Positions 10,801 through 36,340 of a stretch of 43,182 nt of DNA are shown one piece after another. The stretch comes from a virus. The position numbers were made by a program, and so were the translations under genes. The DNA is taken from the IMG/VR virus record IMGVR_UViG_3300006865_000017, positions 1 to 43,182 of that record, one strand, 5' to 3'. The stretch's first letter is position 1. Every line of letters begins with the position of its first letter. The notes beneath the pieces were generated by a model, which saw only the letters and a list, made by a program, of their open reading frames with translations, searched no databases and was not told the origin of the DNA.

Positions 10801-11781
10801 ATGGGTCAGGCTTGGGTTCCCTCGGCGGATGGCGGCTTCCTCGCCAACCCGAAGCTCTCCTCCAAGCTGCGCTACGCGGCGCAGGCGATGATGAAGTTCA
10901 ACCAGTTCGTCCGCCCCGAGCCGGGTCTAGGCAAGGGCGTGGGCGACACGCTGGACTTCGACAAGATCAGCGACATCGTGAATCCGACCTCGATCACGGG
11001 CATCAGCGAGCTGAACGCCATGCCCGAGTCGAAGTTCATCATCACGCGCGGTCAGCTCGTGATGACCGAGTACGGCAACAGCATCCCGTGGACCGGCAAG
11101 CTCGAGACGCTCGCCGAGTTCAACCCGAACAACATCGCCCAGCAGGTTCTCCGCAACGACATGGCGAAGACCATCGACGCCATCGTCGCGAGGACCATGA
11201 AGCGGTGCGCGATCACGGCCACGCCGACCGCGGCCGGCGCGATCACCATCGCGGTCGAGACGACCCCGAGCACGGGCTGGTACGCTGGCGGGCTCACCGC
11301 AGAGCACATCTACGCGGTGCGCGACTACCTGAAGGCCGTGCTCAAGTGCGAGCCGTTCGACGGAGAGAACTACATCGCCGTCGGTTCGGTTCGTGCTCTC
11401 CGTTCGCTGCGCAAGGACACCGACTGGAAGGACGCCGCGAAGTTCGGCGACCCGGAGCGGCTGTTCTCGGGCGAGGTGGGGCGCTTCGACGGCATCCGCT
11501 TCATCGAGAGCAACAACGACGCGGCGCTCGACAACGGGCTCCAGAACGGCGGCAACGACGTGGGCGGCGAGATGCTGATCTTCGGGGCCGACCCGATCGT
11601 CAGCGGGACCGCGATCGCGCCGGAGATCCGGGCGAAGGTCCCGAGCGACTACGGTCGCTCGAAGGGCGTCGCCTGGTACGCGCTCATGGGTCACCAGGTG
11701 CCGTGGCGCGCGAACCTCGACAGCGGCGCAGCGCGCTGCGTCTGGATCACCGCGTCGGACACGAACGTCCCGGCGATCTAA
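10801..11781 (+). CDS. Major capsid protein, N4-gp56 family
   Basis: The protein forms the capsid shell with an HK97-type fold. Diagnostic stretches of the N4-gp56 family are GGFLANPKLSSKLRYAAQ near residue 10, GDTLDFDKISDI, the FIITRGQLVMTEYGNSIPWT segment (about 80-100) and WYALMGHQVPWRANLDSGAAR near the C-terminus. At 326 aa it has the usual length for this family. It is preceded by the putative scaffold and followed by two paralogous small proteins. Its start lies 3 nt after a hairpin that includes the Shine-Dalgarno. Confidence 0.9.
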   Translation: MGQAWVPSADGGFLANPKLSSKLRYAAQAMMKFNQFVRPEPGLGKGVGDTLDFDKISDIVNPTSITGISELNAMPESKFIITRGQLVMTEYGNSIPWTGKLETLAEFNPNNIAQQVLRNDMAKTIDAIVARTMKRCAITATPTAAGAITIAVETTPSTGWYAGGLTAEHIYAVRDYLKAVLKCEPFDGENYIAVGSVRALRSLRKDTDWKDAAKFGDPERLFSGEVGRFDGIRFIESNNDAALDNGLQNGGNDVGGEMLIFGADPIVSGTAIAPEIRAKVPSDYGRSKGVAWYALMGHQVPWRANLDSGAARCVWITASDTNVPAI

Positions 11782-12734: not shown

Positions 12735-12980
12735 ATGCAGAAGACGCTCGACCAGCTCGGGATCGACACCACGAAGCCCTATCGGGTGGTGCTCGGCTCC
12801 GGCGGATCCGTTCTCGAGGCGGAGCAGGTGAAGCCTCCCCGCGTGACGCTCGAGCACTCGCGAGAGACGCGCTCGACCAGGCCCGTCGAGCCGGAGCCGG
12901 AGGCGAGCATCGCGCCCGAGGACCTCGGGGCGATCCCGGTCCCCGCGCGGCGGCGGCGTCTGAATCAGGAGGAGGCGTAG
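12735..12980 (+). CDS. Small hypothetical protein, 81 aa
   Basis: ATG 12735 is preceded by CCTAGGAGGG, in which the CCTAGG palindrome supplies part of the Shine-Dalgarno. The product starts MQKTLDQLGIDTTKPYRVVLG and has a Glu/Pro/Arg-rich, probably disordered second half ending RRRRLNQEEA. No family is recognised. It lies between the head genes and the exported proteins and could be a minor head component; nothing further can be supported. Confidence 0.6.
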   Translation: MQKTLDQLGIDTTKPYRVVLGSGGSVLEAEQVKPPRVTLEHSRETRSTRPVEPEPEASIAPEDLGAIPVPARRRRLNQEEA

Positions 12981-12982
12981 GC

Positions 12983-13510
12983 ATGCGCAATCGCTCGCTC
13001 GCCGCGCTCGCGTTCGCCGCACTGCTCGCCATCGCGCAGCCTGCCTGGTCCGCGCCCTTCTCGGGATGGCGGATGCGCTGCGACGATCCTGCCTCGGCGA
13101 TCACGAGGACCTACCTGCTACCAGGGGAGTCGATTTGCTGGGTCCACAGCGACGACGCGGCGACCGCGAACAGCGTCGCGATCGGCGTCTACCTGTGCCC
13201 CTCGATCTCGTTCGAGTATTGCCGCGTCCCTGGCGACTCGAGCGCTGCGACGATGCGCTTCATGGCTGCGCTCACCGACGCGAAGGCGAACTCGTCGCCG
13301 TACATCGGCGACGTGGACGCGGATGGGATCTTCGACCCGGTGCCTGCGACCGGGGACTGCGGGAGCAACGAGGACGGCAACGGCGTGACGGCGAACGATT
13401 CGAGCTTCTACGGGATCTCGCCGAAGCGCCCCTACTTCTGGGTCGAGGAGGTGAACGCGCCCGGCGCGGGCAACGTCGCGCGCGTGGTCCTCACCTGCAA
13501 CCGCTCCTAG
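12983..13510 (+). CDS. Exported protein with Sec signal peptide, 175 aa
   Basis: ATG 12983 follows AGGAGG. The N-terminus MRNRSLAALAFAALLAIAQP then AWSA is a textbook Sec signal peptide: basic n-region, hydrophobic core, and A-x-A-type cleavage after about residue 24. The mature part has several Cys (at least six, in CDDP, CWVH, LCPS, YCRV, DCGS and TCNRS), consistent with disulfides in an oxidising compartment, and a segment DVDADGIFDPVPATGDCG that may bind calcium. No family is recognised. It is the first of three consecutive signal-peptide genes in the structural region. Confidence 0.75.
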   Translation: MRNRSLAALAFAALLAIAQPAWSAPFSGWRMRCDDPASAITRTYLLPGESICWVHSDDAATANSVAIGVYLCPSISFEYCRVPGDSSAATMRFMAALTDAKANSSPYIGDVDADGIFDPVPATGDCGSNEDGNGVTANDSSFYGISPKRPYFWVEEVNAPGAGNVARVVLTCNRS

Positions 13511-13519
13511 GGAGGCTCC

Positions 13520-15799
13520 ATGCGCAGCCTGCTCGTCGCGCTTCTGACGCTCCTCGCGCACGCGGCATCGCACGCGGCTGGCCCTCCGCGCCTGACAACC
13601 GGAGGCGCGAATGCCGAGGCGTATGCCCCCGGAGACCCCGCGGACTGGGGAGGCGCGCCTCCCACGACCAAGAGCGAGGGCCTCGACAAGATCGTGAACG
13701 AGTGGCTCCGGCTCGACAACGCCGGCTGCGTGACGAAGGCCCCGACGGGCTCCCCGACCGGGGCCGTGACCTGCGAATGCGCGGTCTGCCTACACGCCAC
13801 GACGACGGGGCCGGACTCGCCGTCCCTGTGGGCCTCGATCTCGCCCGGGACCAACAACCAGTGGTTCAACACTGGCGTCTCGCTCGGGGTCGAGGGCCAC
13901 GTCATCGCCAACGAGGGGATCCCGATCGCGCAGCAGGATGCGCTGAACTGCCTAGGTCCCATGGTGGACTGCGTCAACGACGCGGGCAACAACGAGACCG
14001 AGTTGCGCGTGTCGCTGGTCTTCGAGGACGAGGGCGCGGCAGTGACGGAGCGCGCGCGCGTCGACTTCGTCGGCGGCGGGGTCACGGTGTCGGACGTGGG
14101 CGGCGAGACCAGGGTCTCTGTCCCCAGCCCGTTCACGTCGACCGCGACGTCGCTCGCGGAGCTGAAGACCTGCATCGAGACCGCGGTCGCCGCGCGCGAC
14201 TGCCGCATGGCTCCCGGGACGTACAACGGGACGCTCTACGCGGTCCTGCCGAACCTAGGCACCGTGCCGCAGCACCTCACGATCTCGCTCGCAGGGGCGA
14301 CCATCGACCCGGTGGGCGCCGCGGCCGTGAACAATGGCGTCAAGGCCGTGTTCCAGATCCTCCTCAACAACTGGGCGCACGACTCGACGCTTCAGATCGC
14401 CGACGCGCGGATCGAGGGCTCGTCGGATACCGACGAGACCGTCCTCGCCCTGGTGAAGACCGCGGACACGAATGCCAACGCCATCGGCAAGGTGCTCCTG
14501 AGCAACGTGCAGGCGGGCCAGGAGGGCGGAAGCGCGCGCTCGTACCACTACGATCGGCAGGGCGGGACCGGCGCGCAGCTCACGGTGGTGAACAGCGTCT
14601 TCGAGGCCACCGGCTACGTGTTCGAGCACGAATCGGCCGCGGACAACGCCGCCATCGAGATCATGAACTCGAGGTTCCTTGGCGTCGGAGACCGCACCCG
14701 GGCCAACAACATGTGCCTTGGCCTGGGCACGAACCGACCCAGCGCAGGCGCCGACAACGCGTACATCCAGGTGCTCAACTCGCAGCTCCAGAATTGCGGG
14801 GGCGCTTCGCTCGTCGCCTCGACGGTGGCGATGAGCGCTGCGGCCCACCAGCTCGGGACGGGGACCGAAGACGACGTCGTGTTCTTGATCGACGCCAATG
14901 CGGCAGACATGCGGATCCGCGCGACGACCGGGTCGGGAGCCGCCTGGAGCGACGCGCCGATGTTCTTCATGGTCCGCGACCTCCAGCACTCCATCAATGT
15001 GGACGTGGTCGACGAGGGATGCGGAGTATTCGGCGGCAACGGAGGGATCCTCTTCGACGCGGACGTGACGGAGATCAACGGCGACTACCGCGGGCGGGTG
15101 ACCGGCGGCAGCAGCTTCGGGTGCAACATCACCCCGTTCGGGCCCAACATGCTCTCCCTCGACATCGAGGGCTTCCGGGGAGAGGTCGAGGCATTCGGAG
15201 AGGTCTATACCTACCAGGGGCCGACGCTCTTCCGTCGCCGCGTCGACTCTCAGCCGTTCGTGTGGCGCGGATCGGTCGGCGCCGGCGCGTCGCGGAATGC
15301 GATCTCGCTCGCCACCTCGATCGTCGGGGTGAGCCCGACTACCAACAACGCTTGCTTCCTGGCGTCCGGCGCGGGCGCGGCGGCGTGCTCGAGCGAGCTG
15401 TCCGTCTGGATCCCGGTCGACTCGTCGAGGCCGCTCTACATCAACGAGTTCGGGTGCGTCCTCGAAGACCAGGAGGTCACGAACGCCGACGAGGACGACG
15501 CGATCGACACGATCCTCCAGAAGCAGTCGGTGCTCGGCGATGCGACGACCTGGGCGAATGTGACCGCGACGCCTGGGCAGACGGGCAGGATCCGCTGGGT
15601 GGACGACACGCAGACCGAGCGCCACCTCACTGAACTCGGGTATGCCTACGAGCAGGTGACGCGCGGCGCCGTGGTGTTCCCGGCGGGCCAGGTGGCCGCG
15701 CTCAGGGTGCTGGCCCACGTCGAGGTCGACACAGCGCCCACGATCACGAACGGCGCGACGGCGCTGAGAGACAATTGCTGGATCAGGGGGTGGAACTGA
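13520..15799 (+). CDS. Exported beta-helix protein, 759 aa
   Basis: ATG 13520 follows GGGAGG. MRSLLVALLTLLAHAASHAAG is a Sec signal peptide with likely cleavage near residue 20. From about residue 213, after ELKTCIETAVAARDCRMAPGTY, the sequence shows right-handed beta-helix character with repeated N-x-x-F or V-N-S turns (VNSVFEATG, MNSRFLGVG, LNSQLQNCG), as in pectate-lyase-like tailspikes. A C-terminal about 100-residue domain ends DNCWIRGWN. It is probably a polysaccharide-binding or degrading surface protein. A signal peptide on a tailspike-type protein is unusual. It ends with a TGATG overlap with the next gene. Confidence 0.75.
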   Translation: MRSLLVALLTLLAHAASHAAGPPRLTTGGANAEAYAPGDPADWGGAPPTTKSEGLDKIVNEWLRLDNAGCVTKAPTGSPTGAVTCECAVCLHATTTGPDSPSLWASISPGTNNQWFNTGVSLGVEGHVIANEGIPIAQQDALNCLGPMVDCVNDAGNNETELRVSLVFEDEGAAVTERARVDFVGGGVTVSDVGGETRVSVPSPFTSTATSLAELKTCIETAVAARDCRMAPGTYNGTLYAVLPNLGTVPQHLTISLAGATIDPVGAAAVNNGVKAVFQILLNNWAHDSTLQIADARIEGSSDTDETVLALVKTADTNANAIGKVLLSNVQAGQEGGSARSYHYDRQGGTGAQLTVVNSVFEATGYVFEHESAADNAAIEIMNSRFLGVGDRTRANNMCLGLGTNRPSAGADNAYIQVLNSQLQNCGGASLVASTVAMSAAAHQLGTGTEDDVVFLIDANAADMRIRATTGSGAAWSDAPMFFMVRDLQHSINVDVVDEGCGVFGGNGGILFDADVTEINGDYRGRVTGGSSFGCNITPFGPNMLSLDIEGFRGEVEAFGEVYTYQGPTLFRRRVDSQPFVWRGSVGAGASRNAISLATSIVGVSPTTNNACFLASGAGAAACSSELSVWIPVDSSRPLYINEFGCVLEDQEVTNADEDDAIDTILQKQSVLGDATTWANVTATPGQTGRIRWVDDTQTERHLTELGYAYEQVTRGAVVFPAGQVAALRVLAHVEVDTAPTITNGATALRDNCWIRGWN

Positions 15800-18700
15800 T
15801 GCGGCAGGCGGCCTGGGCCCTTCTTGCCTCGCTGACGCTGGCGCTCGCCAGCGCGGCTCACGGTGCGCGCGGGCTGCTGGTGCCTGCGCAGGTCACCTCG
15901 TTCGAGGTCCAGACGACGCAGACGAACGGAGGCATGGTCCCGAGCCTCACGAGTCACAGCCTAGGCATCGAGCACGACTGCCGCCTGCGAAAGTTTTTCG
16001 TCCGAACGATCTGCGCCGAAACCCCCGAGGCCCCCAGCGACACGGTCGAAACTGGCGGCGACCTCGTCGATGCGAACCCGAACGACGGCGACGGTTGCCG
16101 CACCGAGTACGACCTCGCGAATGTGTGCCAGAGGAACGTCGCCGGCACGGTGAGCGACACGATCATCGTCTACCACAAGGTCGGGAACGTGAAGCTCCCG
16201 GCGGTCACCTACGGCAAGGCGGTGACGGCGACGGAGGCGGCGGCGATGAGCATCGCGTTCGCCGCCGTGCTCCCTTCGCCGGTCGGGGTCGCGCCCTTCT
16301 CCCCCGTGCTCGGGCTCTCTGCGCTCGGCGGCACGGTCCCCGTGGTCTGGGACTTCGACTGCAACGGCGACGGGTCGTTCGAGACGCAGCACGGTCACAG
16401 CGGGAAGCAGTTCAACGCGGCGCCGTGCGGATCCTACACGGAAGGGCTCTACGCCATCGGGGCGCGCGTCTGCGACGAAGCCGGCGTCGGCTGCGGGACG
16501 GCCCAGGTTCAGATTGTCGTCGAGGCGCCCGCCCCGGAGCCGGCCTGCCGCGACGGTCTCGACAACGACGGGGACGGTCTGCGCGACTACCCGAGCGACC
16601 CCGGCTGCGCGAGCCCGGACTCGCCGAGCGAGTCGCCGGAGTGCAGCGACGGGCTCGACAACGACGCGGACGGGGCCGTCGACGGCGTCGACGCCGACTG
16701 CTCCTCCCCCTTCGACCAGAGCGAGCACGGGAGCGTGCAGGCCGTGTGCTCGAACACGCTCGACGACGATGGAGACACGCTCGTCGACGCGGCCGATCCC
16801 GGGTGCCCGGACGCAGCCGGGACCAAGGAGAACCCGCGCTGCAACAACGGAACCGACGACGACGACGACGAGCAGGTCGACTACCCGAGCGATTCGGGGT
16901 GCTACGGACCCTCGGACGACGACGAGACCGGCCCCGTCGGCACCGGCGCGATCTTCGAAGAGAGGTTCGACGCGGCCAACGTAGGGACGATCGCGAGCCA
17001 CTTCGGGAGCTGTTGCCAGGGGACGACCGGGATCAGTGTCATCACCGGCGCTGGGAACACCAGGCCGGGGGCCGCAGACGGACAGGCGATCCGCATGGCG
17101 GCGAACGGGTCGTCGTACCTCTACAAGAGGCTGCCGCAGGACTACGGCCGCATCTACATGCGCGTCTGGCTGAGGTACGGGGCCGGCTCGAGCGCGGGCC
17201 ACCCTGGCATCGTCGTGGGCGGCTACTCGCCTCCGACAGTGTTCCCTCAGGGCGACTCGGGCTGGAAGGGGTACCGCGATCCTGCATTCGGAGGCGACGG
17301 CAGCAAGCTGTTCACATTCGCCTACGAGCTGCGGCCGGACAGCCAGCTCGACTTCTACGCGAACTTCGTCGGCATGGCCGGTCCGGCGTTCCTAGGCCCC
17401 GGGACCGAGGGCGCCGGATACTTCGGTCGGTCGTTCCTGTCGGCGCCCATCCCCTCGTACTCCAACCCTCCCGGCACGGCCTGGCGGTGCGTCGAGGTGA
17501 TGGTCAAGCCGAACACGACGCCGGCCGGAACCGACGGGGAGATCGCGGCTTGGATCGACGGCCTCCTCGTCGAGCACTTCAGGCCGGGCGCTCCCACGGG
17601 ATCGTTCAACGCCGCGGGCGATTGGATCACGGGCGCGGGATCGCCGTTCCCCGGGTTGCAGATCCGCGACGAGACGACTTACGGCGTGAACTTCATGAAG
17701 GTCCAGAACTACCAGTCCGGCGGGACGCTGGACGTGGACGACCTGGTCGTGAGCGCCGAGCGTGTCGGTTGCGGCGCTCCTGCGCCCGCGGCGTTCTTCG
17801 AGGTGTCGCCCAGCTCGTTCTCGGCGTCGAGCGTCGTCGGGCAGCCCTCATCGCCGACGCGGACGCTGACCGTGACCAACACCGGCGGCGCCACAGGTAC
17901 GTACTCGATCACGCCGCGCTCCGCGCTGGCGGCTCCCTTCGCCAGCATCACGAACCAGACGGCGACGCTCGCGCCCGGCCAGTCGATCGCGGTGACCTAC
18001 GCCTTCAACGCCTCGGGCCTGACCCCGCAGACCTACTCGTTGCTGGCGGACCTGACCAACCCCGCGAACGCGGCGAACGCGGTGCTCATCACCGCCACCT
18101 ACACCGTGACGCCTACGTCTACGGGGGCCTCGTGCGGCTCGAGCTACGAGCAGCGCGCGTGCGACCTGATGTCCGACGCCGACCCGAGCACGGTCGTCAC
18201 CTGCGCGGAGAAGCTCGATCGCGACACCACGCCGTACCACGAGACCGGCCTAGGCGGCTGGATGAACGACTCGCTCCAGTGGACGACCGGACCCGAGCCT
18301 AGGCTGAAGGCGCTGTTCCCGAACGTCGACACGCCGCAGGCGTGCAGGCATCCGGGGTTCAACGCAGTGTGGGACACCGGCAATGCGAAGCGCTACCGAA
18401 CCGTGACGGGATCGTCCGTGGGCCTGCCCCAGGTCTCCAGGCTCTTGCAGGTCAACATGGAGGGCGGGCCGACCAGCGTCTATCTGTACGACTGGTTCGA
18501 CGAGACGTTCGAGGATCGCACCTACTGCGGCCGTGCCTACGTCCAGTATTCGGCCGGCACGAAGCCGCCGAAGGAGGGCTGCGCCGACGGCGGGTCGCCG
18601 TGCATCCCCGACTCGAGCCCGGGCGCGGCGCACAAGGGGCCCTCGTGGCGCGCGATCTTCACCACCAGCGGGCCTCAGGACAACCAGGGCACGCCCGGCG

Positions 18701-21297
18701 CGCCGAACGTCGAGTTCACCTTCGACAACCTCGCGCCCGTCCTGAACGTGAACGGGACGGCACAGCAGGATCAGGACCCGGCGCTTGCGGACTTCCGGCT
18801 CGCGCCCCAGAACTCCGCAGGGAACGACTGGTGGACAGGGTCCGACCCGCTGAACGCGCCGCGCGTCGCCGGTCGCGCCATGAAGCTGAAGGACTGCATC
18901 GACTCGCTATGCCGGGTCGAGATGTGCTTCGACCATCGGCAGGATGATCGCCTGAGAGCGCGCCTGCGCATCACGAGGGTCGACAACGGCGAGTTCGGGC
19001 AGTGGGAAGAGGTCGGCGATCGGGTGAGCCCCGGCATCGTGCCCCGCACGGGATGGTTCTTCGGGCCCATCACCGTTGCGGACGACGCGAACACGACCGC
19101 GGGCCTGTATAGGCTCTACACGCACTTGCTATCGGCGAAGGTCCCGCTCAACGAGTCGTACTGGCTCGGTGCTGCGTGCGAGGTCGAGGGTGGCTGCGGC
19201 GGGCAGCCCGAGCCGCTCAAGGTGCTCGGGTTCGGCGACGAGATTACCCAGGGGTGGGACTACGGGTCGCTGTTCCCTGCGGAGTGGGCGAGGATCGACC
19301 GCGGGAAGCCCGGGGAGACGGCCGCGGCCGGCGCATCGCGGTTCCTCGATGCCGGCCTCGCCAGCGGGTGCGCCGACGCGGCTTCGACCACCTGCTCTTA
19401 CGCGAACACCATCGCGCAGCACCCGGACGTTGACGTCGTCGTCGTCGGCTGGGGAACTCACGACGCGAAGCTCTACGGCGCATCCGGCGGCAGCCAGCTC
19501 TGCGAGTGGGACATCCGCACTTGCAGCACCACGACCGGCATCGACTCCTACGCGGAGAGCATGCACGACGTGCTTCAGGCGATCGAAGACTCGGGGCGCG
19601 CGGCAGTGGTGCTGATCCCTCCCCCGGTCTACGGCACGCACGGAGGCGTCGACTACGTCACCGCGGTCGAGCGCGGGTCCGACATCCGCAAGATCGCGAT
19701 GGCCGAGGCGGTCGAGCACGGGTTCACCTGGGCCGATCTATGGGGCGTCTGGCAGGCCCAGGTCGAGCCGTGGGACTGGTACCAGCCCAGTTGCACTGCG
19801 CCGGACGCTGCGAACCCTCCTGCGGACTGCGTGCTGTTCGCCGGGAACGTTCCGGCCATGGATGCCGCATCCGCCGAGGTGAAGAAGGCGATCGAGGATG
19901 CGTGGAGGCTTCACACGCTCCCGATCGTCTCCCCGATCGGGAGCGACGACGCGGCCATCGAGGCCGCGCTCGGCATCTGCGACGGCCTAGACGGGTGCGA
20001 GCTGCGGCTGCCCGCCGGGACGTACTCGGGCCTACAGATCGACGGCTCTAGGATGCGAGCCACCCTGTTGCCTAGGGGGCTGCGCATCCGAGGGGCCGGC
20101 CGCGGCGCGACGATCCTGGCGTACCGAGAGGACGGCCAGGCGACGCACGCGCTGATCCACAACGACGCGACGCCCGACTACTTCTCGATCCGAGACCTCA
20201 CGTTCGATGGCCGAAGGCTGTCGGCACAGATGAGCGTCAACTGCGTTCCGCAGCAGGTGAGCGTCGGGCTCTCCCCGAAGCGATGCGCCGGGGGGAACCT
20301 CCACACTGCGGTTTCGTTCAATTCCCCTGCCAATGCGCTGAAGCGGCGCCAGGGGATCGCGCGCGTCGACTTCCTCGACTGGCCGAACGCCGGCCTGATC
20401 GTCGAGAACCTGGAGCAGGGCGGGTTCGCGGATCTCGTGTTCCGGCGGATTGGCTGCTCGGACCGCACCGCCTTCGGCGCGACGCAGCCATTCGTCGGGT
20501 GCCACGCAAGCTGGGGGACCGATCCCGGGCCGAACACCACGACCCAGGCCGGCCACGGGATGCACATCAGCCGGATCTCGAGGACGATCGGCGTCATCCG
20601 CGTCGAGGTGGAGGCTTCGACGAAATACTCGATCGAGACCGGGAATCTGGCGGGCGTCTCGGTCGGGGACGTCCCTGCGTTCGAGAGCACGCAGGACATC
20701 TTCGTCGGCTGGACGACCCACAAGAACACGGCGACCGGCTTCACGATGCGCAGCCCGCGCACCACCTTCTACGACTTCTCGATGACCCAGGATCTCACAA
20801 AGCCGCACTGGTGGGCCACCGGGATCGACGGTGGGACCGGGCTCAACATCTTCGATTGGGTGTGGTCCGGGAAGGCGCTCAACGGATACGTGGAGTCGCT
20901 CGGGGCCGGGCTCTCGACGCGCAACGAGAGCCAGCCCAGCCGGCCGAGCGAGATGTACCTCCGCAACGTGGACTTCGCGCGACCTTGCCTACAGGACGTG
21001 GCGACCTCCGGCGCCTTGCAGCTCATGCCCACGTCGGCGTCGCCCAGGGACATCGGCGTGCTTCGCATGGAGGAGGTCCGGGTCGCAGTCGACTCGAACA
21101 ACTACTGCGCGCTCGCCGCGGACGCGCACAGAATCGACCAGCTCATCGTCGATGGCTTCGAGGTGGACGGCGGCTCGCAGGGTGCCGACGTGCTGGTTCG
21201 AGACACGGTCGAGGCGGGCTCGATCGACGGATGCACGCTACTCAATGGAGCGCAGATCACGAACCAGAGCCCGGGCGTGGCGGGGGACTGCGTGTGA
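15799..21297 (+). CDS. Giant exported mosaic surface protein, 1832 aa
   Basis: ATG 15799 overlaps the previous stop. MRQAAWALLASLTLALASAA is a Sec signal peptide. Domains in order: PKD-like (about 158-244, WDFDCNGDG); four DGLDNDGDG-type calcium-binding repeats ending in Cys (about 249-368); laminin-G/concanavalin-like region (about 383-657); Ig-like module (about 668-770); a second lectin-like region (about 778-1131); an SGNH-hydrolase-like domain (about 1135-1374); and a pectate-lyase-type beta-helix (about 1378-1832, DDAAIEAAL...LPAGTY). In the SGNH domain the GDS serine is replaced (G1146-D1147-E1148), and the block III N is H1221. The role is likely recognition of host or environmental glycans. 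Confidence 0.8.
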   Translation: MRQAAWALLASLTLALASAAHGARGLLVPAQVTSFEVQTTQTNGGMVPSLTSHSLGIEHDCRLRKFFVRTICAETPEAPSDTVETGGDLVDANPNDGDGCRTEYDLANVCQRNVAGTVSDTIIVYHKVGNVKLPAVTYGKAVTATEAAAMSIAFAAVLPSPVGVAPFSPVLGLSALGGTVPVVWDFDCNGDGSFETQHGHSGKQFNAAPCGSYTEGLYAIGARVCDEAGVGCGTAQVQIVVEAPAPEPACRDGLDNDGDGLRDYPSDPGCASPDSPSESPECSDGLDNDADGAVDGVDADCSSPFDQSEHGSVQAVCSNTLDDDGDTLVDAADPGCPDAAGTKENPRCNNGTDDDDDEQVDYPSDSGCYGPSDDDETGPVGTGAIFEERFDAANVGTIASHFGSCCQGTTGISVITGAGNTRPGAADGQAIRMAANGSSYLYKRLPQDYGRIYMRVWLRYGAGSSAGHPGIVVGGYSPPTVFPQGDSGWKGYRDPAFGGDGSKLFTFAYELRPDSQLDFYANFVGMAGPAFLGPGTEGAGYFGRSFLSAPIPSYSNPPGTAWRCVEVMVKPNTTPAGTDGEIAAWIDGLLVEHFRPGAPTGSFNAAGDWITGAGSPFPGLQIRDETTYGVNFMKVQNYQSGGTLDVDDLVVSAERVGCGAPAPAAFFEVSPSSFSASSVVGQPSSPTRTLTVTNTGGATGTYSITPRSALAAPFASITNQTATLAPGQSIAVTYAFNASGLTPQTYSLLADLTNPANAANAVLITATYTVTPTSTGASCGSSYEQRACDLMSDADPSTVVTCAEKLDRDTTPYHETGLGGWMNDSLQWTTGPEPRLKALFPNVDTPQACRHPGFNAVWDTGNAKRYRTVTGSSVGLPQVSRLLQVNMEGGPTSVYLYDWFDETFEDRTYCGRAYVQYSAGTKPPKEGCADGGSPCIPDSSPGAAHKGPSWRAIFTTSGPQDNQGTPGAPNVEFTFDNLAPVLNVNGTAQQDQDPALADFRLAPQNSAGNDWWTGSDPLNAPRVAGRAMKLKDCIDSLCRVEMCFDHRQDDRLRARLRITRVDNGEFGQWEEVGDRVSPGIVPRTGWFFGPITVADDANTTAGLYRLYTHLLSAKVPLNESYWLGAACEVEGGCGGQPEPLKVLGFGDEITQGWDYGSLFPAEWARIDRGKPGETAAAGASRFLDAGLASGCADAASTTCSYANTIAQHPDVDVVVVGWGTHDAKLYGASGGSQLCEWDIRTCSTTTGIDSYAESMHDVLQAIEDSGRAAVVLIPPPVYGTHGGVDYVTAVERGSDIRKIAMAEAVEHGFTWADLWGVWQAQVEPWDWYQPSCTAPDAANPPADCVLFAGNVPAMDAASAEVKKAIEDAWRLHTLPIVSPIGSDDAAIEAALGICDGLDGCELRLPAGTYSGLQIDGSRMRATLLPRGLRIRGAGRGATILAYREDGQATHALIHNDATPDYFSIRDLTFDGRRLSAQMSVNCVPQQVSVGLSPKRCAGGNLHTAVSFNSPANALKRRQGIARVDFLDWPNAGLIVENLEQGGFADLVFRRIGCSDRTAFGATQPFVGCHASWGTDPGPNTTTQAGHGMHISRISRTIGVIRVEVEASTKYSIETGNLAGVSVGDVPAFESTQDIFVGWTTHKNTATGFTMRSPRTTFYDFSMTQDLTKPHWWATGIDGGTGLNIFDWVWSGKALNGYVESLGAGLSTRNESQPSRPSEMYLRNVDFARPCLQDVATSGALQLMPTSASPRDIGVLRMEEVRVAVDSNNYCALAADAHRIDQLIVDGFEVDGGSQGADVLVRDTVEAGSIDGCTLLNGAQITNQSPGVAGDCV

Positions 21298-21569
21298 CCT
21301 CTCCGATCAGCCTAGTCAAGGACGCGATCTCGCACGTGGAAGTCCAGAGATCCAACGGCGCCAACGGCGACGGCGGGCTAACCATCCGAATCAGCAGCAG
21401 GGGGGTGTTCGTGTTGCTGCTCGTGGCGGTCGGCCTGAGCATCTGGAACAGCCTGGAGCTTCGCGGCATGCGGCGCGAGCTGACGCGCATCCACAAGCAG
21501 CAGATCGCGATGGCGCAGGCCACCGGGGTCCCGGTGACGTCCGGGCCCGACGAAGAGCGCGGCACTTGA
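21294..21569 (+). CDS. Small membrane protein with coiled coil, 91 aa
   Basis: GTG 21294 overlaps the previous stop (GTGA). After about 40 polar residues there is one transmembrane helix (GVFVLLLVAVGLSIW), then an amphipathic charged helix (RGMRRELTRIHKQQIAMAQA) and a short acidic tail. An N-in, C-periplasmic topology with coiled coil resembles inner-spanin-like or membrane-tether proteins, but the usual lysis neighbours are absent. It might anchor or chaperone the exported giant protein encoded upstream. Function unproven. Confidence 0.55.
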   Translation: MTSPISLVKDAISHVEVQRSNGANGDGGLTIRISSRGVFVLLLVAVGLSIWNSLELRGMRRELTRIHKQQIAMAQATGVPVTSGPDEERGT

Positions 21570-21588: not shown

Positions 21589-22332
21589 TTGAACTACCAG
21601 AAGATCGAACAGGAGGCGCTCGATTTCCTGAACGCCCAGTTCGCGGAGATCACGAACTGGCAGCGCGCGTGGACCAACGGCGGGCGGCGCGAGATCCAGC
21701 GCCTCTACGACTTCCCCGAGGCGCTCAAGCTCTACCCCGACGAGGACGCGATCGGGACGACCTTCAAGCTCGAGGCGGGGAACCGGAGGCTCGTGATGCC
21801 CGCCACCTTCAAGGCGTTCCGGTCGAAGCGCGGCGACCTCTGGCGCGTCGAGGGGGCGAACGGAGATCATGTGCCGCTCGAGCGCATGGAGTACGAGGAC
21901 ATCGTGGAGCGCTACGACCTAGGCGCCAGCGGGGTGCCCGAGGCGTTCCACATGACCTGGTCTCCGGACGGGTCCGGCCTCGTGACGGTGGACTGCTACC
22001 CGAAGCCGAGCGCGGAAACCCCGCTTCGCGCGCACGCCTACTTCTACCTGGAGGACCTGCCCGATGGAGACGTGTCCTCCTACGAGGACTTCATCTCGCG
22101 GCTCGACCCGTTTCTCGTGCGCGACTACATCGTGCGCGAGGCGCTCATCAAGCTCGAGATGTGGGACTCGGCTTCGCAGCTTTCGCAGTCGATGAGCAAC
22201 CGCGCTCTGGCGCTCCAGAAGGACGCCAAGGTCCGCGAGCTGGAGCGATCCGGGTCGCTGGTGCCGCGGCTCCGCGTGGCAGAGAGGGGAACCTCGCGCG
22301 AGATGGGGTATCCCTTCTGGGGCAAGGCGTAG
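21589..22332 (+). CDS. Head-tail adaptor-like protein, 247 aa
   Basis: TTG 21589 follows GGAGGGAGGG. The protein begins NYQKIEQEALDFLNAQFAEITNW and continues with helices and beta segments: RLYDFPEALKLYPDED, VDCYPKPSAETPLRAHAYFYLEDLP, LRVAERG. This pattern (helical start, YP-P motif before a short beta strand) matches the podovirus adaptor family, such as SU10-type adaptors, which bind the portal and form the first tail ring. The stop codon is the left part of a 20-bp perfect palindrome centred on CCTAGG. Confidence 0.7.
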   Translation: MNYQKIEQEALDFLNAQFAEITNWQRAWTNGGRREIQRLYDFPEALKLYPDEDAIGTTFKLEAGNRRLVMPATFKAFRSKRGDLWRVEGANGDHVPLERMEYEDIVERYDLGASGVPEAFHMTWSPDGSGLVTVDCYPKPSAETPLRAHAYFYLEDLPDGDVSSYEDFISRLDPFLVRDYIVREALIKLEMWDSASQLSQSMSNRALALQKDAKVRELERSGSLVPRLRVAERGTSREMGYPFWGKA

Positions 22333-22364: not shown

Positions 22365-23192
22365 TTGGGGAATCCGACCGGCAACAACGCGCCGATCCCG
22401 CTCGACGACAGCGAGCCGGACGGCGACGTCATCAAGGTTAAGCAGCTCGACGACTTCATCCGAGAGACCAGGCTACAGCTCAAGACCTTCCTCGAGCGCT
22501 CGCACGTCCACTTCGACGATCCCAAGGCGGGCGAGATGAAGCCGGGCACGGCGCTGCCCGCGGTCGACACCGCCGCGAACCTACGAGCCGCGGGCGTGTA
22601 TCCCCCGGCCGCTTGGTCGGGGCGCCTGGGCCTCTCGCACAACCGCGACCTGTGGAGCTGGCGCGACCTGGGCGGCGGGCTCGAGGCATACCGCGTCGGG
22701 CACATGCCTCTGATCCAGGGCGTCACCTACGAAGAGGTGACCTCGTCCGCTCTCCAGGCCAACATCGCGGCTTCCGCGTGGACCGAGGTCGGGCCTGGGG
22801 CGACGGTCTCTCTCTCCGGCTTCACGAGGCGCGACTTCTCTCCGCTGGTGAGCATCCGGATGCGCTACGCGATCCCTGTGCTCAACGCCTCCGGCTCGGA
22901 GCGCGGCGTCACGGCGCGCTTCAAGTACTCCATCGGAGCCGAGTACGTCACGCCCGGCGGCCTCACGATGCAGACGCACACTCCGGTGCGGCTCCGCCAG
23001 AACACGGGGGCTACGCTGCTCGGAGAAGCGTGGATCCTAGGCGGCGCGCTGTTCGTCCCGGGTGGGCAGTTCAACGTCCGCGCGGAGGTGTTCGCCGACG
23101 GCAACCAGGTCTCTATCTGCGGCGATCTGGTCGCCGGCCAGGCAAACGCGGCGTTCATCAACGCCACGATCATGCACCATCCGTCGTCGTGA
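22365..23192 (+). CDS. Putative tail protein, 275 aa
   Basis: TTG 22365 follows GGGAGGGGG. The N-terminal about 60 residues form a helix (KVKQLDDFIRETRLQLKTFLERSH), then a beta-rich body with ATVSLSGFTRR, GVTARFKYSIGAEYV and FNVRAEVFADGNQVSICG. It lies between the adaptor and the beta-propeller nozzle and ends in a GTGA overlap with the latter. It may be a tail fibre, knob or nozzle accessory. No specific family is recognised. Confidence 0.6.
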   Translation: MGNPTGNNAPIPLDDSEPDGDVIKVKQLDDFIRETRLQLKTFLERSHVHFDDPKAGEMKPGTALPAVDTAANLRAAGVYPPAAWSGRLGLSHNRDLWSWRDLGGGLEAYRVGHMPLIQGVTYEEVTSSALQANIAASAWTEVGPGATVSLSGFTRRDFSPLVSIRMRYAIPVLNASGSERGVTARFKYSIGAEYVTPGGLTMQTHTPVRLRQNTGATLLGEAWILGGALFVPGGQFNVRAEVFADGNQVSICGDLVAGQANAAFINATIMHHPSS

Positions 23193-25489
23193 GCGCAGGA
23201 ACCCCTCCGACCAGTCGCCGCTCTCGCGCCAGGCGGACCGCGCTCGTCGGATCCGCCGAGTACCAGCCCTACGAGATCCGGTCGGTCGGCGGCGGGATCG
23301 ACCGCACGATCCGGCAGACGCTCACCGACCCTGGCAAGTGGTGGGACTCGGACGGAATGGCGCCGCGCCGGCTGCGAGCGGAGAAGGCCGGGGGCTTCGA
23401 GGCGCTGCTCCCCGACCTGCTCTCGCCGCCGTTCTCGGGGGAGTTCTCCCGCGGCGCGATCTTCTACCTGAGCGGCAGCGAGGCGTACTGGGAGCTGTAC
23501 GGGTTCGACCCGGCGAGCATGGTGTTCGGCGACTCAGGCGCGAACCCGTATCGGGCGTGGGAGTTCAAGCTCGAAGGGGATCCGGAGTCTTTCTGGACGC
23601 GCATCGACGACATCGCCGTCGTGGGCGGCGCGCCCGCCTCGATGCGGAAGATCACGTTCTTCGGCGGGGCCTCCTACCCCACGATGCAGTTCGGGGACCC
23701 GTCACAGACGGATGTCGCCATGGCCGCGGTGCGCAAGAGGCCGCAGTTCCGGATGAGCTTCGGTCGCCTAGGCTCGGTGGGTGGCGACTCCACGCAGACC
23801 TGCCAGGTGAACCTGGTCGAGGCCCACTACGTCTCGCCGGACGACGAGCGCCTCATCCTAGGCACGCCCCGCATGGTCTACCGCTTCGACCTCGCCACGC
23901 GGCGCGCGGACTACACGGACCACATCAACCCGATCTACACAACCGGGACGATCTCGACGATCGGCGTCGGCAGTGCTGGAGCCACTTCGCTCGTGACCGG
24001 GGCCGGCACGGGCTGGAACGGGTCTGCCTGGCCGCTGCCGGTCCAGGAGCGGTGGCTCTTCAAGCTCGACGAGGACCCCGACTCCTACTGGACCGAGGTC
24101 GACTCGGCCACGAACGCGACCACGATCGAGCTGAAATACAACTACCCGAAGGCGCTCGGCGGCGGGCCGAAGGCATACACACTGATCCGCGTCTGGCAGG
24201 CCGTGATTCCGCCCGAGCTAGCTCGGCTGAACTCGTGGAGCGCGGCGCAGTGGGGATACGACTCTCCGGGGCGTCGGCTCATCATCACGAACGGAATCGA
24301 CGCGGTGCTCCAGTACGACGGAGGCACCGGCAGGCTGGCGCCGCTCTCATTCATCGACGACGACGACCCCGAGAGCGATCCGCTGAGCCCGACGTTCGAC
24401 TGGGCCCGCTTCGTGCTCGAGTTCAAGGAGCACCTCATTCTCGGCTACTTCAAGAAGGGCGCCGTGGTCCACGAGCGCGGCGTCGCGTGGAGCATCCCGC
24501 TCGACTGCGAGCGCTGGCGCCACAGCTACGCGCGGCTCCTCCCTGGCGCAGGGGAGATCACCGGGCTGGGGCAGCTCGGCGACCTGCTCGTGGTGTTCAC
24601 CGACCGAGCGATCTATGCCATGCGCTACCTAGGCAGCCCGTTCTGGTTCGGGATCGCCCAGAGGATTTCCGATGTGGGCTGCATCGCGGCAGGCTCGATC
24701 CAGAATATCCGCGACCAGCAGATCGTCTTCCTCGGCGAGGACAACCTCTACAGCTACGACGGCGTGCGCGCGGCTCCGATCGGGGATCCGGTCAAGGACC
24801 TGATCTACCCGATGCTCAACGACGACAACAAGCCGCTGGTCGCGTCGCGCTACGACGAGACCAGCGGGCGCTACCTACTGTCGGTCCCCAGCAACACGAG
24901 AGACGACCGCAACGCATCGACGTTCGCGTTCGACGTGAACGAGGCGAAGTGGTCGCGCCCGCTGCCCGGCTTCGGCGCGATCGGCAAGTACGTCCTCGCC
25001 GAGGACGACGGTGTCGTGAACCAGGACGAGCGCATCGTCAACTCTGTGAACGATATCGTCAATCAGCGACACACGAAGAAGACGCCCATCCTGGTCGCTG
25101 GGGATCACGGCGGGGCCGTGTACAGGATCAACGGCGGCACGAACCACGACGGCGCAACCAAGCGCTGCGAGATCACGCTGCCGCTCTCCGACCTAGGCGT
25201 GCCTGGCCTGAAGCGATACGGCTGGGCCGACATCGAGTGCGCGCGCGGCATGGAAGGCGCGCAGGTCTACGTCGGGCTCTCCAACAACGGGGAGGACGTC
25301 ACCTGGGTCGGGCCGTTCGGCATCGAGGTGCTGGGCGTGCCCGGTGACCCCAACAGCGAGCGCAGGCCGCGTGTCTGGGTGAACAAGTCGGCGCACTACT
25401 TCGCGCACCGAATCGTCCACGAGCAGCCCGATGCGGACTTTGTCGTGGACGGCATCACCGCGTGGTTCCGCTGGAGGGGCGTCCGGTGA
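23189..25489 (+). CDS. Tail nozzle / beta-propeller tail hub, 766 aa
   Basis: GTG 23189 overlaps the previous stop. The body has repeated W/Y-containing beta blades: LYGFDPASMVF, DSYWTEVDSATNATTIEL, LIITNGIDAVLQYDGGTG, LLVVFTDRAIYAMRYLG, QIVFLGEDNLYSYDGVRAAPIGD, YLLSVPSNT. This is the signature of the P22 gp10 / T7 gp12 class of hexameric tail nozzles built on a beta-propeller. It forms the DNA exit tube of a short tail and is strong support for podovirus morphology. It ends in a GTGA overlap with the following gene. Confidence 0.82.
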   Translation: MSAGTPPTSRRSRARRTALVGSAEYQPYEIRSVGGGIDRTIRQTLTDPGKWWDSDGMAPRRLRAEKAGGFEALLPDLLSPPFSGEFSRGAIFYLSGSEAYWELYGFDPASMVFGDSGANPYRAWEFKLEGDPESFWTRIDDIAVVGGAPASMRKITFFGGASYPTMQFGDPSQTDVAMAAVRKRPQFRMSFGRLGSVGGDSTQTCQVNLVEAHYVSPDDERLILGTPRMVYRFDLATRRADYTDHINPIYTTGTISTIGVGSAGATSLVTGAGTGWNGSAWPLPVQERWLFKLDEDPDSYWTEVDSATNATTIELKYNYPKALGGGPKAYTLIRVWQAVIPPELARLNSWSAAQWGYDSPGRRLIITNGIDAVLQYDGGTGRLAPLSFIDDDDPESDPLSPTFDWARFVLEFKEHLILGYFKKGAVVHERGVAWSIPLDCERWRHSYARLLPGAGEITGLGQLGDLLVVFTDRAIYAMRYLGSPFWFGIAQRISDVGCIAAGSIQNIRDQQIVFLGEDNLYSYDGVRAAPIGDPVKDLIYPMLNDDNKPLVASRYDETSGRYLLSVPSNTRDDRNASTFAFDVNEAKWSRPLPGFGAIGKYVLAEDDGVVNQDERIVNSVNDIVNQRHTKKTPILVAGDHGGAVYRINGGTNHDGATKRCEITLPLSDLGVPGLKRYGWADIECARGMEGAQVYVGLSNNGEDVTWVGPFGIEVLGVPGDPNSERRPRVWVNKSAHYFAHRIVHEQPDADFVVDGITAWFRWRGVR

Positions 25490-26381: not shown

Positions 26382-26894
26382 ATGCAGATTCGCAGGGCAC
26401 GGCCGGAAGACCTCGACACGTTCAGGTTCCTGTGGCGACGCTTCCTCGAGGAGGCGAACGCCATGGGCATCCGCGAGATGCTGCCGACCCATCGCACGCT
26501 CTGGTACTACGTCCGGAGCTTCGACGCCGTCGTGAGCGGACGCAGCCCTGGCGTGTGTCTCGCGGTCGAAGTCGACGGCGAGGTGGTCGCGATGTCGCTC
26601 GCCGCCGGCATCGACGTGCCCTGGGACACGGGGTTCGGGCGCTGCGCAGCCGGCCTCGGTTCCGTGGTCCACCCGGACCATCGTGGCAAGGGGTACGCCG
26701 ACCCGCTCCTGCGGGCGATGCGCGCGGCTCTGCGCGAAGAGGGATTCGACTCCTGGCTCGGCAGCGGCCACGTCGAGAACAAGCGCTCGCTGGAGACCTA
26801 CCTCAAGCGCGGCTGGAAGGTCTACGCGGTCGCCGGCCGCATGGACCTGCGCGAGGATCAGGCAGAGAGCGGAGGTCAGGGGGAGCGCGCATGA
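26382..26894 (+). CDS. GNAT-family N-acetyltransferase, 170 aa
   Basis: The sequence starts MQIRRARPEDLDTFRFLWRR, typical of GNAT beta1-alpha1. Strands with CLAVEVDGEVVAMSLAAG follow, then the acetyl-CoA-binding motif A region VVHPDHRGKGYADPLL (about residues 95-110, R/Q-x-x-G-x-G/A type), and the C-terminal SWLGSGHVENKRSLETYLKRGWK, as in family members. It transfers an acetyl group to an unknown amine. Several podoviruses carry a GNAT among late genes, with unknown substrates. It overlaps the next gene (ATGA). Confidence 0.87.
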   Translation: MQIRRARPEDLDTFRFLWRRFLEEANAMGIREMLPTHRTLWYYVRSFDAVVSGRSPGVCLAVEVDGEVVAMSLAAGIDVPWDTGFGRCAAGLGSVVHPDHRGKGYADPLLRAMRAALREEGFDSWLGSGHVENKRSLETYLKRGWKVYAVAGRMDLREDQAESGGQGERA

Positions 26895-29466: not shown

Positions 29467-32400
29467 GTGGCCTCGCCCTTCGCCATTCTCGGACCCCTCG
29501 AGCCTGAGGCTCAGGCTCCGGGCGTCGCCGCGGGCGCCGCCGTCGACCCCGACGCCATCTGGCGGCTGGTCGCGCAGAGCGAGCCCTCGCTGCTCGAACG
29601 CCTAGGTGGCGGCTTCTCGGCCGGCCTCTCGGAGTCGATCTTCGCTCCGGCGCTCAGGCACATGACGCGCCCTGGTGTCGAGGGTCTCGAGCGCCGCCAG
29701 GCGTTCCCCGGCGTGATCGCTCACGGGAGACCCGAGGCGCCCGGCATGGCGGAGCGGGTGCGCGCGTTCGACGAGGCGCGAGCGGCGGCGGGGATCGAGC
29801 GACCGGGGCTCGACATCGCGGCCGACGCGCTCGCCTTGACGGCCGGGATGCTGGCGGGCGACCTCCCGACGTTCTTCGTCCCCGGGGGGCTCATCGCGCG
29901 CAGCGTTGGCGTCGGGCGGCGGCTGGCCGCGGCGACCGGGGCCACCGGCGGGCGCGCGGCGCTGGTCCGCGCGATGACCGAGGCCGGGGCTCTGTTCGGG
30001 ACCGGCGAGGGCCTGCGCGAGGGGCTGAAGCAGGCGTTCGGCGAGGCGCCGGAGGACCCCGGGGCCATCGTGGCACACGCGGCGCGCGGCCTCGCAACGG
30101 GCGCCGCGCTGGGCGCGACCCACAGGATCCCGAACGCGCTCCTGCGGCTGGCCGGCGAGTACGCCACCTTCGCCGGCTTGGCGCCCGGGCTCGAGGGGCG
30201 CCTCCCCACGAGGGAAGACCTCTGGGGCGCGGGCGCCATGGTGCTCGGATTCCGGGCCCTCGACCTCGTGATGCGCGCCGCGAGCCCGACCCCTGGCGCC
30301 GATCGCGAGGTTGCCGTCGCGGAGATCCGCCGGCTCCACGAGCTTGCTGCGCGGGAGCGGCAGCTCTCGCCCGAAGTGAGCGCCGGCGCTCGCGCCATCG
30401 AGGGCGCCTTCAGGGCCATGTTCGAGGGTCGCGAGGGCGGCATGAGCGAGCTGGAGACGCAGCTCGCTGCGAAGCTCGCTCGGGCGGAGTTCGTAGAAAG
30501 GGCGACGTCAGACCCGGAGTACCTCGGAAACTTCTCTCCTGAGGCCGTCCAGCGCGCCCAGGAGCGCTTCATCCGCGAGTTCACCGAGACGAAGCTCGCC
30601 GAGACCGAGATGGGGCGCTTCCTGGCCGATCAGTTCCCCTCGGGCAAGCCCGCGGCCCCCATGGGGCGACAGGTGCTCGACGTGAAGGGGGGAGCGCCCG
30701 AGCGCCTCCAGATCGCGACCACGCGGGGCGTCGCGCCGGAGGCCCGGGTCGGCGAGGTGATCCGCCGCCGCGGCGCCCCGACCGCGCGCCGCACCGAGGC
30801 CATCGCCGAGGTGTCGGCCGGGAAGCTGCCGGACATCGTCGGCCGGGGCCCGGCCCCGCCGGCCGCGGCCCCGCCGGCCACACCGGCCCCGCCGGCCGCG
30901 ACGCCGCCCGCGACGCCGCCCGCGGCCCCGGCGCCGAACAAGGTTCAGCCGCCGACCGAAGACCAGCTCGTGAGGGCGCGCGTCCACATCAACCGGCAGG
31001 TGCCGCAGGCCGAGCGCGGCGCGGTGCGCAAGCTGCTCGCGCAGCTTGCCGAGCGCCCGGAGGGCTTCGACATCCAGGCCGCGCTCGCCGACCCGCGGGT
31101 GCGGACCGTGCTCGAGAGCGGCGGCTGGACGCCGACGCCCTTCGTGGGCGAGGTCGAAGCCATGCGCCTGCCGCGCTCGCCCGCCGAGGCGGGCTACGTC
31201 CCCGCCGCAGAGCTGCGCTCCGGCGAGATCGTGGCCGCGCCGGATCTTGGCGAAGCGCTCAGGTCGCGCGGAGTGCTCGCCAGTCAGGTGGCTCGTGTCG
31301 GCTACACGGATCCGCGTCGGCCGGAGCTGGGTCTGAGACCGACGAGCGAGGTCTCGGCCGAGATCGTGCAGCGCCTAGGCACCGCCCGCGGCCTTGATGA
31401 GACCGACATCGCGGCCGCGGTCGGCCATCTCGAGGCGCGCCGCCTAGAGCGGCAGGTGCTCGAGGACCTGACCGCGGGCTCCGCGGATCCGCTTCAGGCG
31501 GGCCCTGCGCCCGAGGTGTCTCCGACCATGCAGGCGTACCTGCGAGAGAACGAGAGGCGCCGGGGCGATGTTCGCTACGCGGCGGCCGAGCCGCCGCCTG
31601 CGCGCCCGGAGCCGATCCACGAGGCGCCGCCGAGCGACCTCTACAGCGGACCGCTCGGCGTGGCCGCCTACGAGAACGCGCTGCGACACGCGCGAGCGGT
31701 CTCCGAAGAGATCGCCATGCAGCTCCATGAGCGCGCCTGGGTCCGCCGCTATCAGGTCGCGCGACGCCTGCGGCGTCCGGCCTCTGGCGAGCCGCGGTCG
31801 TCCAGTTGGGAGACGCTCGCCGGAGGGCGCGGCACGTACCTGAGTGACGGTGCCTTGGCGATGCTGGAGAAGCTCCAGCGCCACCTCGCGCTCAGCGCGG
31901 TCTCGCGACAGCTCAAGGTCGAGACGCCCCTCGACTTCGCCGTGCTGGGGCAGCTATTCGGCAGGAACGACGCATTCGAGCAGTTCGGGACGGCCTACTT
32001 CAAGGAAGACGGCACGCTCGTCCATATCGAGCTGACCACGATGCGTCTGCCGTCTAGCACAGCGGCTTTCGAGATCGCCCCGCGCGACGCCCGCAAGCTC
32101 GAGCGCGCGAGGCAGCAGGGCAGCGACGCCTACAACATGGCGATGCGCGATCTTTGGATGCGAGAGTTCGAGAGGCTCGAGGCGCGCCGGCGCCAGCTCG
32201 GCGCGGACTACATCGCCAACTTCCACAACCACCCGAGCAGCGCGGCCGCCGCCTCGCCCGCCGACATGATAGTCGTGCGCCTGTTCGAGAGATACGTCCC
32301 GACGTGGCGCTACCACGTCATCTTCGACGAGGGACACTTCGGGCTCATGCACAGGCATCGCGGAGGCTCGGCCGCGCCCGTCGTCGTCCCGCTCCCCGCC

Positions 32401-35743: not shown

Positions 35744-36340
35744 TCAGCGGCGCAGGAGCCCGCTCGCGAGTCCGGCGGCGAAGCCGAGCGCGCCCTGTAC
35801 CCACCCGCTCTCGGGTCGATGGTCGACGTACACGAGCTGGGCGCGGTCCGTGCCGTCCGTCGCGTCGGGCGGCACGCAGCGGACCTTGGCGGACGCGACG
35901 CGCGCGACGGTGCGGTGCTTCACAACCGGCCGGCCGTTGACGCAGGTCGCCTCCGTCGTGGCGCACCCGAGCGCGAGCGCCGCGACGACCGCAGCGAGGC
36001 GGATCGAACGAGCCGGGCTCCTGCGCGGCTTCGGGTCGTACTCGATGTGCAGATGATCGCTCTCGAGGACGATGTCGAAGCCTAGGCCGGCCAGCCGGAG
36101 CCTCAGAAGCTCGGCCCAGCCGCGAGCCTCGCTCCCGCTGAGGTGCGCGGTTCGCAGGTCCGCCGCACGGCCGCTGTAGTGCAGGGATCCGGGCATGTGC
36201 TTGCCGTCGTTGATCGACGTGACCTCGAACGGGCCTCGCTTGTCTAGGCCCTGGTCGTCGTGCGTCGACTCGGCGACGATCAGGCCGAGCAAGAGCTGCG
36301 GCGAGAGGCCGTCGATCTTCACGCCACGCTTGAATCGCAT
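35744..36340 (-). CDS. M15-type endolysin fused to a lipoprotein-like tail, 198 aa
   Basis: ATG 36340 is preceded by GGAGG with 7-nt spacing. Residues about 12-104 form a peptidase M15 (D-Ala-D-Ala carboxypeptidase / L-alanyl-D-glutamate endopeptidase type) domain with zinc ligands H54 (HYSGRAAD), D61 and H98 (DHLHIEY). Residues about 111-126 are a hydrophobic segment ending LALGC, a lipobox with Cys126, followed by a polar tail and a final Gly/Ala/Leu-rich hydrophobic stretch. No ATG, GTG or TTG lies in frame near the lipobox, so this appears to be one continuous fusion. It is 4 nt from the convergent polyvalent gene. Confidence 0.8.
   Translation of the reverse strand: MRFKRGVKIDGLSPQLLLGLIVAESTHDDQGLDKRGPFEVTSINDGKHMPGSLHYSGRAADLRTAHLSGSEARGWAELLRLRLAGLGFDIVLESDHLHIEYDPKPRRSPARSIRLAAVVAALALGCATTEATCVNGRPVVKHRTVARVASAKVRCVPPDATDGTDRAQLVYVDHRPESGWVQGALGFAAGLASGLLRR

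Follow-up and report, generated by a model that had tools for sequence, protein, structure and literature searches.

In this study, three adjacent genes, A, B and C, were analyzed in a single virus record (IMG/VR, IMGVR_UViG_3300006865_000017). The window, meaning the whole analyzed stretch, has 43,182 bases and a GC content of 69.6%. Its gene content is that of a podovirus with an N4/SU10-like head: the terminase belongs to Pfam Terminase_3 and the portal is of the SU10 type. All three genes begin with a leader that looks like a Sec signal peptide, and A–C are, judging by the sequence, very probably exported through Sec. Leaders of this kind recur in other phages, and in relatives they are fused exactly onto fibre domains. 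We believe that the three products may dock on released virions at lysis. The explanation as a whole, with docking as the favoured and not the proven end use, has in our judgement an even chance of being right.

The three genes are as follows.
12983..13510, + strand: gene A, 175 amino acids (aa), 6 cysteines (Cys), leader at about residues 1–22 (leader score, AGGAGG, start spacing)
13520..15799, + strand: gene B, 759 aa, 16 Cys with the first at residue 70, leader at about residues 1–19 (leader score, GGAGG)
15799..21297, + strand: gene C, 1832 aa, 48 Cys, leader at about residues 1–22 (leader score, ATG overlapping the stop of B, Pfam)

The leaders open MRNRSLAALAFAALLAIAQPAWSA in A, MRSLLVALLTLLAHAASHAAG in B and MRQAAWALLASLTLALASAAHGARG in C. 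At the best-supported start, all three leaders show a charged n-region followed by a hydrophobic core and an AXA-type cleavage site, and cleavage was predicted approximately at ~22/23 in A, 19/20 in B and 22/23 in C. The scorer was rule-based and used the charge of the n-region, the hydrophobic core and the AXA-type site. The scores were 7.25 (A), 7.33 (B) and 6.6 (C), compared with 5.4–8.3 for 13 Escherichia coli controls, although the scorer by itself does not tell cleaved signals and signal anchors apart. In 2000 trials, shuffled N-termini reached the real score once for A, never for B and 19 times for C. Elsewhere within the three proteins, no stretch exceeded a score of 5.

The start of A (ATG 12983) has an AGGAGG site and lies 2 nt after an upstream stop codon ending at 12980. 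The start of B (ATG 13520) has a GGAGG site and lies 9 nt after the stop of A, and the start of C (ATG 15799) overlaps the stop codon of B. Alternative downstream starts have a weak ribosome site or none, and the upstream starts of C, TTG 15775 and GTG 15790, would spoil its leader. The sequence-only reading had proposed that all three genes begin with signal peptides and are coupled by overlap or short spacing. Both claims hold, and the downstream starts that could have removed the signal peptides are poorly supported.

The three proteins are rich in Cys (A 3.4%, B 2.1%, C 2.6%) and their Cys counts are all even; in the capsid, tail and ejection genes nearby the share is 0–0.9%. The probable ejection protein of the same gene cluster (29467–35739, roughly 2000 aa) contains no Cys at all, in contrast to A–C. 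Cys- and Asp-rich repeats occupy residues ~250–370 of C, and Pfam placed a HYDIN Ig-like domain at residues 683–754. A degenerate GDSL/SGNH-like region at residues 1145–1328 reached 27.9 bits against a curated cut-off of 32.9. This block reads GDE and not GDS, without the catalytic Ser. Because of the low score and this replacement, no active esterase is claimed for C, and depolymerase stays a conjectural label for each of the three genes.

The fibre or spike label given to these genes earlier fared less evenly. The genes do lie inside the virion cluster, but A and B matched no fibre family in Pfam or PHROGs and C gave only the Ig-like and the weak GDSL matches. Direct searches of viral contigs and phage records with B and C returned nothing, and the N-terminal part of B, searched at E up to 10, gave chance matches only. 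Among solved structures, none matched B and one short weak match was obtained for C. The motif DWGGAPPTTKSEGLDKI of B, searched in all fetched proteins, occurred in B itself only. AlphaFold2 without an alignment gave a mean model confidence (pLDDT) of 39 for B and 34 for the C-terminal part of C; these models were unusable for a fold search. Signal-arrest-release (SAR) endolysins and spanins were also considered for A–C. They were ruled out by the protein sizes, by the cleavage motifs and by the search for lysis domains, which found none in A–C.

The clearest view of the leaders comes from relatives, whose contigs carry L numbers here. In family 1, a fibre N-terminal domain (LKQSTASQ...GPFVDDTDGKTAETGLTIANTD) starts near the Met, usually within 1–5 residues, in 68 of 71 further homologues, and it is also close to the Met in a Microcystis phage protein. 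Five phages (L053, L065/L177, L235, L244 and L263) carry a complete leader before this domain. The predicted cut in these forms leaves 2–4 residues before the conserved L[KR], the same as in the leaderless forms. The Cys content was 1.39% in the leader forms and 0.47% in the leaderless forms (p 0.004; n = 5 and 64). A compartment-specific Cys pair in this family was only partial, since both Cys occurred in three of the five leader forms. Three of the leader contigs, which are partial, showed no homologue of the window-type capsid, and the leader phenomenon may cross phage types.

In family 2, seven of eight homologues have leaders, and the conserved Cys pair is missing from the one that does not. 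Among four close members the leaders are 35–60% identical, whereas the following domain is 85–98% identical. At the sequence level, this fast turnover of the leader next to a nearly fixed mature start is the pattern of cleaved signal peptides; it was seen in relatives, as the window genes have no close homologues. The alignment of L156 (leader) with L159 (no leader) begins just after the leader. In L019/L020 and others, the leader and the N-terminal domain are conserved and the C-terminus is divergent.

These data bear on whether the leaders are cut at all. Uncleaved leaders would be signal anchors or hydrophobic N-termini serving inside the virion or a membrane. The scorer also detects signal anchors such as Rz and a SAR endolysin, and some relatives (L018 14843, L097 11121) appear anchor-like. 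However, the AXA-type motifs and the Cys richness of A–C, together with the divergence of leaders before nearly identical mature domains, make this reading improbable. Export into the oxidising environment that had been suggested for these proteins is likewise well backed, by the leaders themselves, by the Cys richness and by homologues that differ in having a leader or not.

Anchoring on the major capsid protein of the window gave ~140 loci from viral contigs and another 20 from bacterial or archaeal ones. Only starts chosen by a ribosome site were scored, in genes of at least 150 aa. Near the homologous capsids, 42 of 1098 genes had a leader, compared with 2.2 expected from shuffled N-termini; these counts are approximate because the gene caller misplaces some starts (for example those of A and C). 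The same procedure gave 6 leaders among 189 genes in T7, lambda, P22, N4 and five other control phages, and none on an annotated virion fibre. The leader-scoring genes of lambda and N4 were Lom, Rz and the SAR endolysin, so the scorer picks up phage proteins already known to be exported, but no established virion fibre.

Several leader proteins of the relatives have fibre-like domains. Collar domains were matched in L116 (phrog_523, 1e-19) and L156 (4e-20), and the protein of L138 matched phrog_366 (4e-11) and has collagen-like repeats. A leader protein of L018 matched a tail spike (1e-13), one of L052 matched phrog_892 (2e-9), and a leader gene of L065 matched Pfam Beta_helix (2e-11). The leader genes of L043 encode laminin-G (2e-19) and beta-helix-like proteins. 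As in the window, leader genes form adjacent runs: four in L043, four in L065 with a fifth nearby, and three each in L052, L053 and L263. One member of the L053 run (955–2130) has a leader, MNRRQFITTASGLLVPALADA, that looks like a twin-arginine (Tat) signal.

On the capsid tree, leader genes were present in 21 of 90 scorable genomes, two of which (L027 and L068) rest on short proteins that are possibly signal anchors. The positive genomes are scattered and need 17 changes, at least 11 of them forced by supported branches. A single ancestral gain is thus unsupported, and repeated gain and loss fits cargo. The leader-gene region near the capsid is a cargo slot of this phage group. Genes that by eye resemble glycosyltransferases or methyltransferases lie near the capsid gene in L011, L014, L018, L043, L052, L091, L097 and L112. 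Homologous capsids in bacterial contigs came from, among others, three isolates of betaproteobacteria and metagenome-assembled genomes of deltaproteobacteria, none of them close enough to name the host of the window phage.

We propose the following route for A–C. They would be fibre- or spike-type late phage proteins, synthesised as precursors for Sec, exported by the host SecYEG and then freed of the leader by signal peptidase I. The mature Cys-rich proteins would oxidise in the periplasm of a diderm host, probably binding calcium, and would thereby be separated from the cytoplasmic assembly of heads and tails. Lysis would mix this periplasmic pool with the cytoplasmic pool of virions. Mature A–C could then dock on the released virions via their N-terminal domains, and would act as extra, exchangeable receptor- or polysaccharide-binding appendages next to the leaderless tail fibre. 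P22 tail spikes attach to completed heads in lysates, which makes docking plausible on physical grounds. Docking would also explain two patterns: the predicted mature N-termini match those of leaderless fibres, and conserved N-terminal domains precede variable C-termini, as in L019/L020.

Three end uses had been put forward from the sequence: free depolymerases, surface conversion of the host, and a virion part assembled from outside. All three survive. If A–C are exported, docking is the main use that we tentatively favour, at somewhat less than an even chance, on the strength of the two N-terminal patterns just described; free secretion and surface conversion are close rivals. Several observations weigh against it. 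A and B lack both recognisable relatives and a usable model, which leaves their fibre nature a deduction; for A–C the fibre or spike label comes from position, size and relatives. The Cys pair of family 1 is not exclusive to leader forms and is found in some leaderless forms too. Leaderless, Cys-poor fibre-like genes occur in the same contigs as leader genes (L065, L138), so a place on the virion does not follow for the exported proteins. The genes resembling glycosyltransferases and methyltransferases share the capsid-to-adaptor interval in relatives, which suits surface conversion, and L087, a close capsid relative, has no leader gene at this place.

The separate leaderless fibre-like genes and the sugar-modifying genes of the slot favour the two other uses, free secretion and surface conversion. 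In free secretion A–C would be exported, and lysis would free them as soluble proteins that bind or degrade polysaccharide. They would clear the envelope and matrix of the producing cell, which would keep progeny from sticking, and would never belong to the virion. The beta-helix (L065) and laminin-G (L043) proteins among the leader genes of relatives agree with this, and C is a mosaic of extracellular-type domains. However, a soluble enzyme would not need a retained fibre N-terminal domain, nor predicted mature N-termini that coincide with those of leaderless fibres, and C has no identified intact catalytic site. We regard free secretion as rather doubtful overall, and as a possible use among the exported readings.

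Under surface conversion, a coat or mask of exported proteins would cover the surface of the infected or lysogenic host and serve superinfection exclusion or adhesion, as with lambda Lom and Bor. Lom, encoded between the tail genes J and orf-401, scores as exported. The leader-gene slot is shared with the sugar-modifying genes, the trait is scattered over the capsid tree, the L018 contig contains an integrase, and homologous capsid genes occur in long bacterial contigs. By contrast, those window genes that were scanned with Pfam yielded no recognisable integrase. A–C showed neither a lipobox nor a membrane anchor or barrel, and all three genes are part of a virion operon. For these genes surface conversion is unlikely, and it stays a rival candidate, somewhat behind free secretion, if export is granted.

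The features around the three genes are as follows. A–C lie between the capsid and adaptor genes.
10801..11781, + strand: major capsid protein, ~32% identity to the capsid proteins of Vibrio phage D279 and Escherichia phage PTXU04
11809–12222 and 12236–12655: tandem paralogues directly 3' of the capsid gene, DNA ~76% identical over 235 bases, possibly decoration proteins
12735..12980, + strand: 81-aa gene without a leader, directly 5' of A (open reading frame and coding composition)
21297..21569, + strand: 90-aa protein directly 3' of C, one membrane helix and a charged helical tail (from sequence; no match in a Pfam search)
21589..22332, + strand: head-tail adaptor of the SU10 type, which closes the interval (Pfam SU10_adaptor, E 3e-7)
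22365..23192, + strand: leaderless tail-side protein, a candidate for a cytoplasmically assembled fibre (position, and N-terminal resemblance by eye to proteins of L009, L010 and L096, with no profile confirmation)
23207..25489, + strand: head-closure (P22 gp10-like) virion protein (phrog_3287, E 6e-25)

Small proteins of the same build as the 90-aa protein also adjoin leader genes in L014 (12173), L018 (12150) and L097 (5919); they may be spanins, holins or anchors. A GNAT acetyltransferase gene lies inside the virion operon (26382–26894, Pfam E 1.5e-11), and small genes resembling it occupy a comparable place in L009, L018, L096 and L111. A possible endolysin at 35744–36340 (− strand) weakly matched the Hedgehog N-terminal fold and is perhaps of the peptidase M15 type. 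A second record of the same virus (IMGVR_UViG_3300025310_000073, L003) is 99.99% identical over 11.4 kb and ends before gene A.

Captured host secretory genes or an assembly chimera, without a phage role, would be another source of such leaders. The Cys/Asp-rich repeats and the Ig-like domain of C are of a bacterial extracellular type, in part by inference. However, the GC content of the A–C region is 0.686 and that of the flanks 0.685 and 0.703, and codon usage matches (r 0.90), which makes a host insert or chimera unlikely. With the tight coupling to virion genes and the recurrence of the arrangement in many phages, this origin is very improbable.

Known podovirus spikes and fibres assemble in the cytoplasm. 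Like P22 gp9, T7 gp17 and the N4 appendages, A–C are large proteins encoded with virion genes, and the leader genes of relatives share with such fibres the Collar, phrog_366 and phrog_523 matches and the pattern of a conserved N-terminus before a variable C-terminus. Unlike A–C, the known ones are leaderless, with none scored in T7, lambda, P22 or N4. Lambda Lom and Bor resemble A–C in their leader, their cargo-like position and their probable action at the cell surface, but they are small single-domain membrane proteins or lipoproteins and do not form arrays of large fibre-like proteins. Vibrio phage 1.232.O and Escherichia phage PTXU04 have a homologous capsid and a similar order of portal, adaptor and head-closure genes. 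Their capsid-to-adaptor interval, however, holds only small genes and no leader gene, and the fibre of PTXU04 is leaderless and encoded between terminase and portal.

The accepted view of tailed phages is that their virion parts are built in the cytoplasm. Phage lysis proteins such as SAR endolysins, Rz and T4 RI use the host Sec as A–C would, but they are short lysis regulators or enzymes. A SAR endolysin occurs in JG068 (PMC3765740), and a cleavable signal peptide has been reported for T4 RI (PMC8385771). No description of a leader-bearing tail fibre was found in the full-text literature searched, with most subscription journals and preprints outside its coverage; signal sequences were found there on phage lysis proteins (PMC3765740, PMC8385771).

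From the leader-plus-fibre arrangement in many environmental phages, it seems that the fibre proteins of some phages are completed or put to use beyond the host cytoplasm. We propose, with considerable reserve, that virion completion outside the cytoplasm marks a recurring class of tailed phages, with Sec-exported (in one case perhaps Tat-exported), periplasm-oxidised fibre arrays that dock at lysis via the N-terminal domains of leaderless fibres. If fibres routinely pass Sec, host range could depend on disulphide-bonded, periplasm-folded modules that mix between co-infecting phages at lysis. Alternatively, fibre-like proteins could remodel infected cells from outside. Either way, a class of large and mostly unannotated viral proteins would be opened to ordinary export assays.

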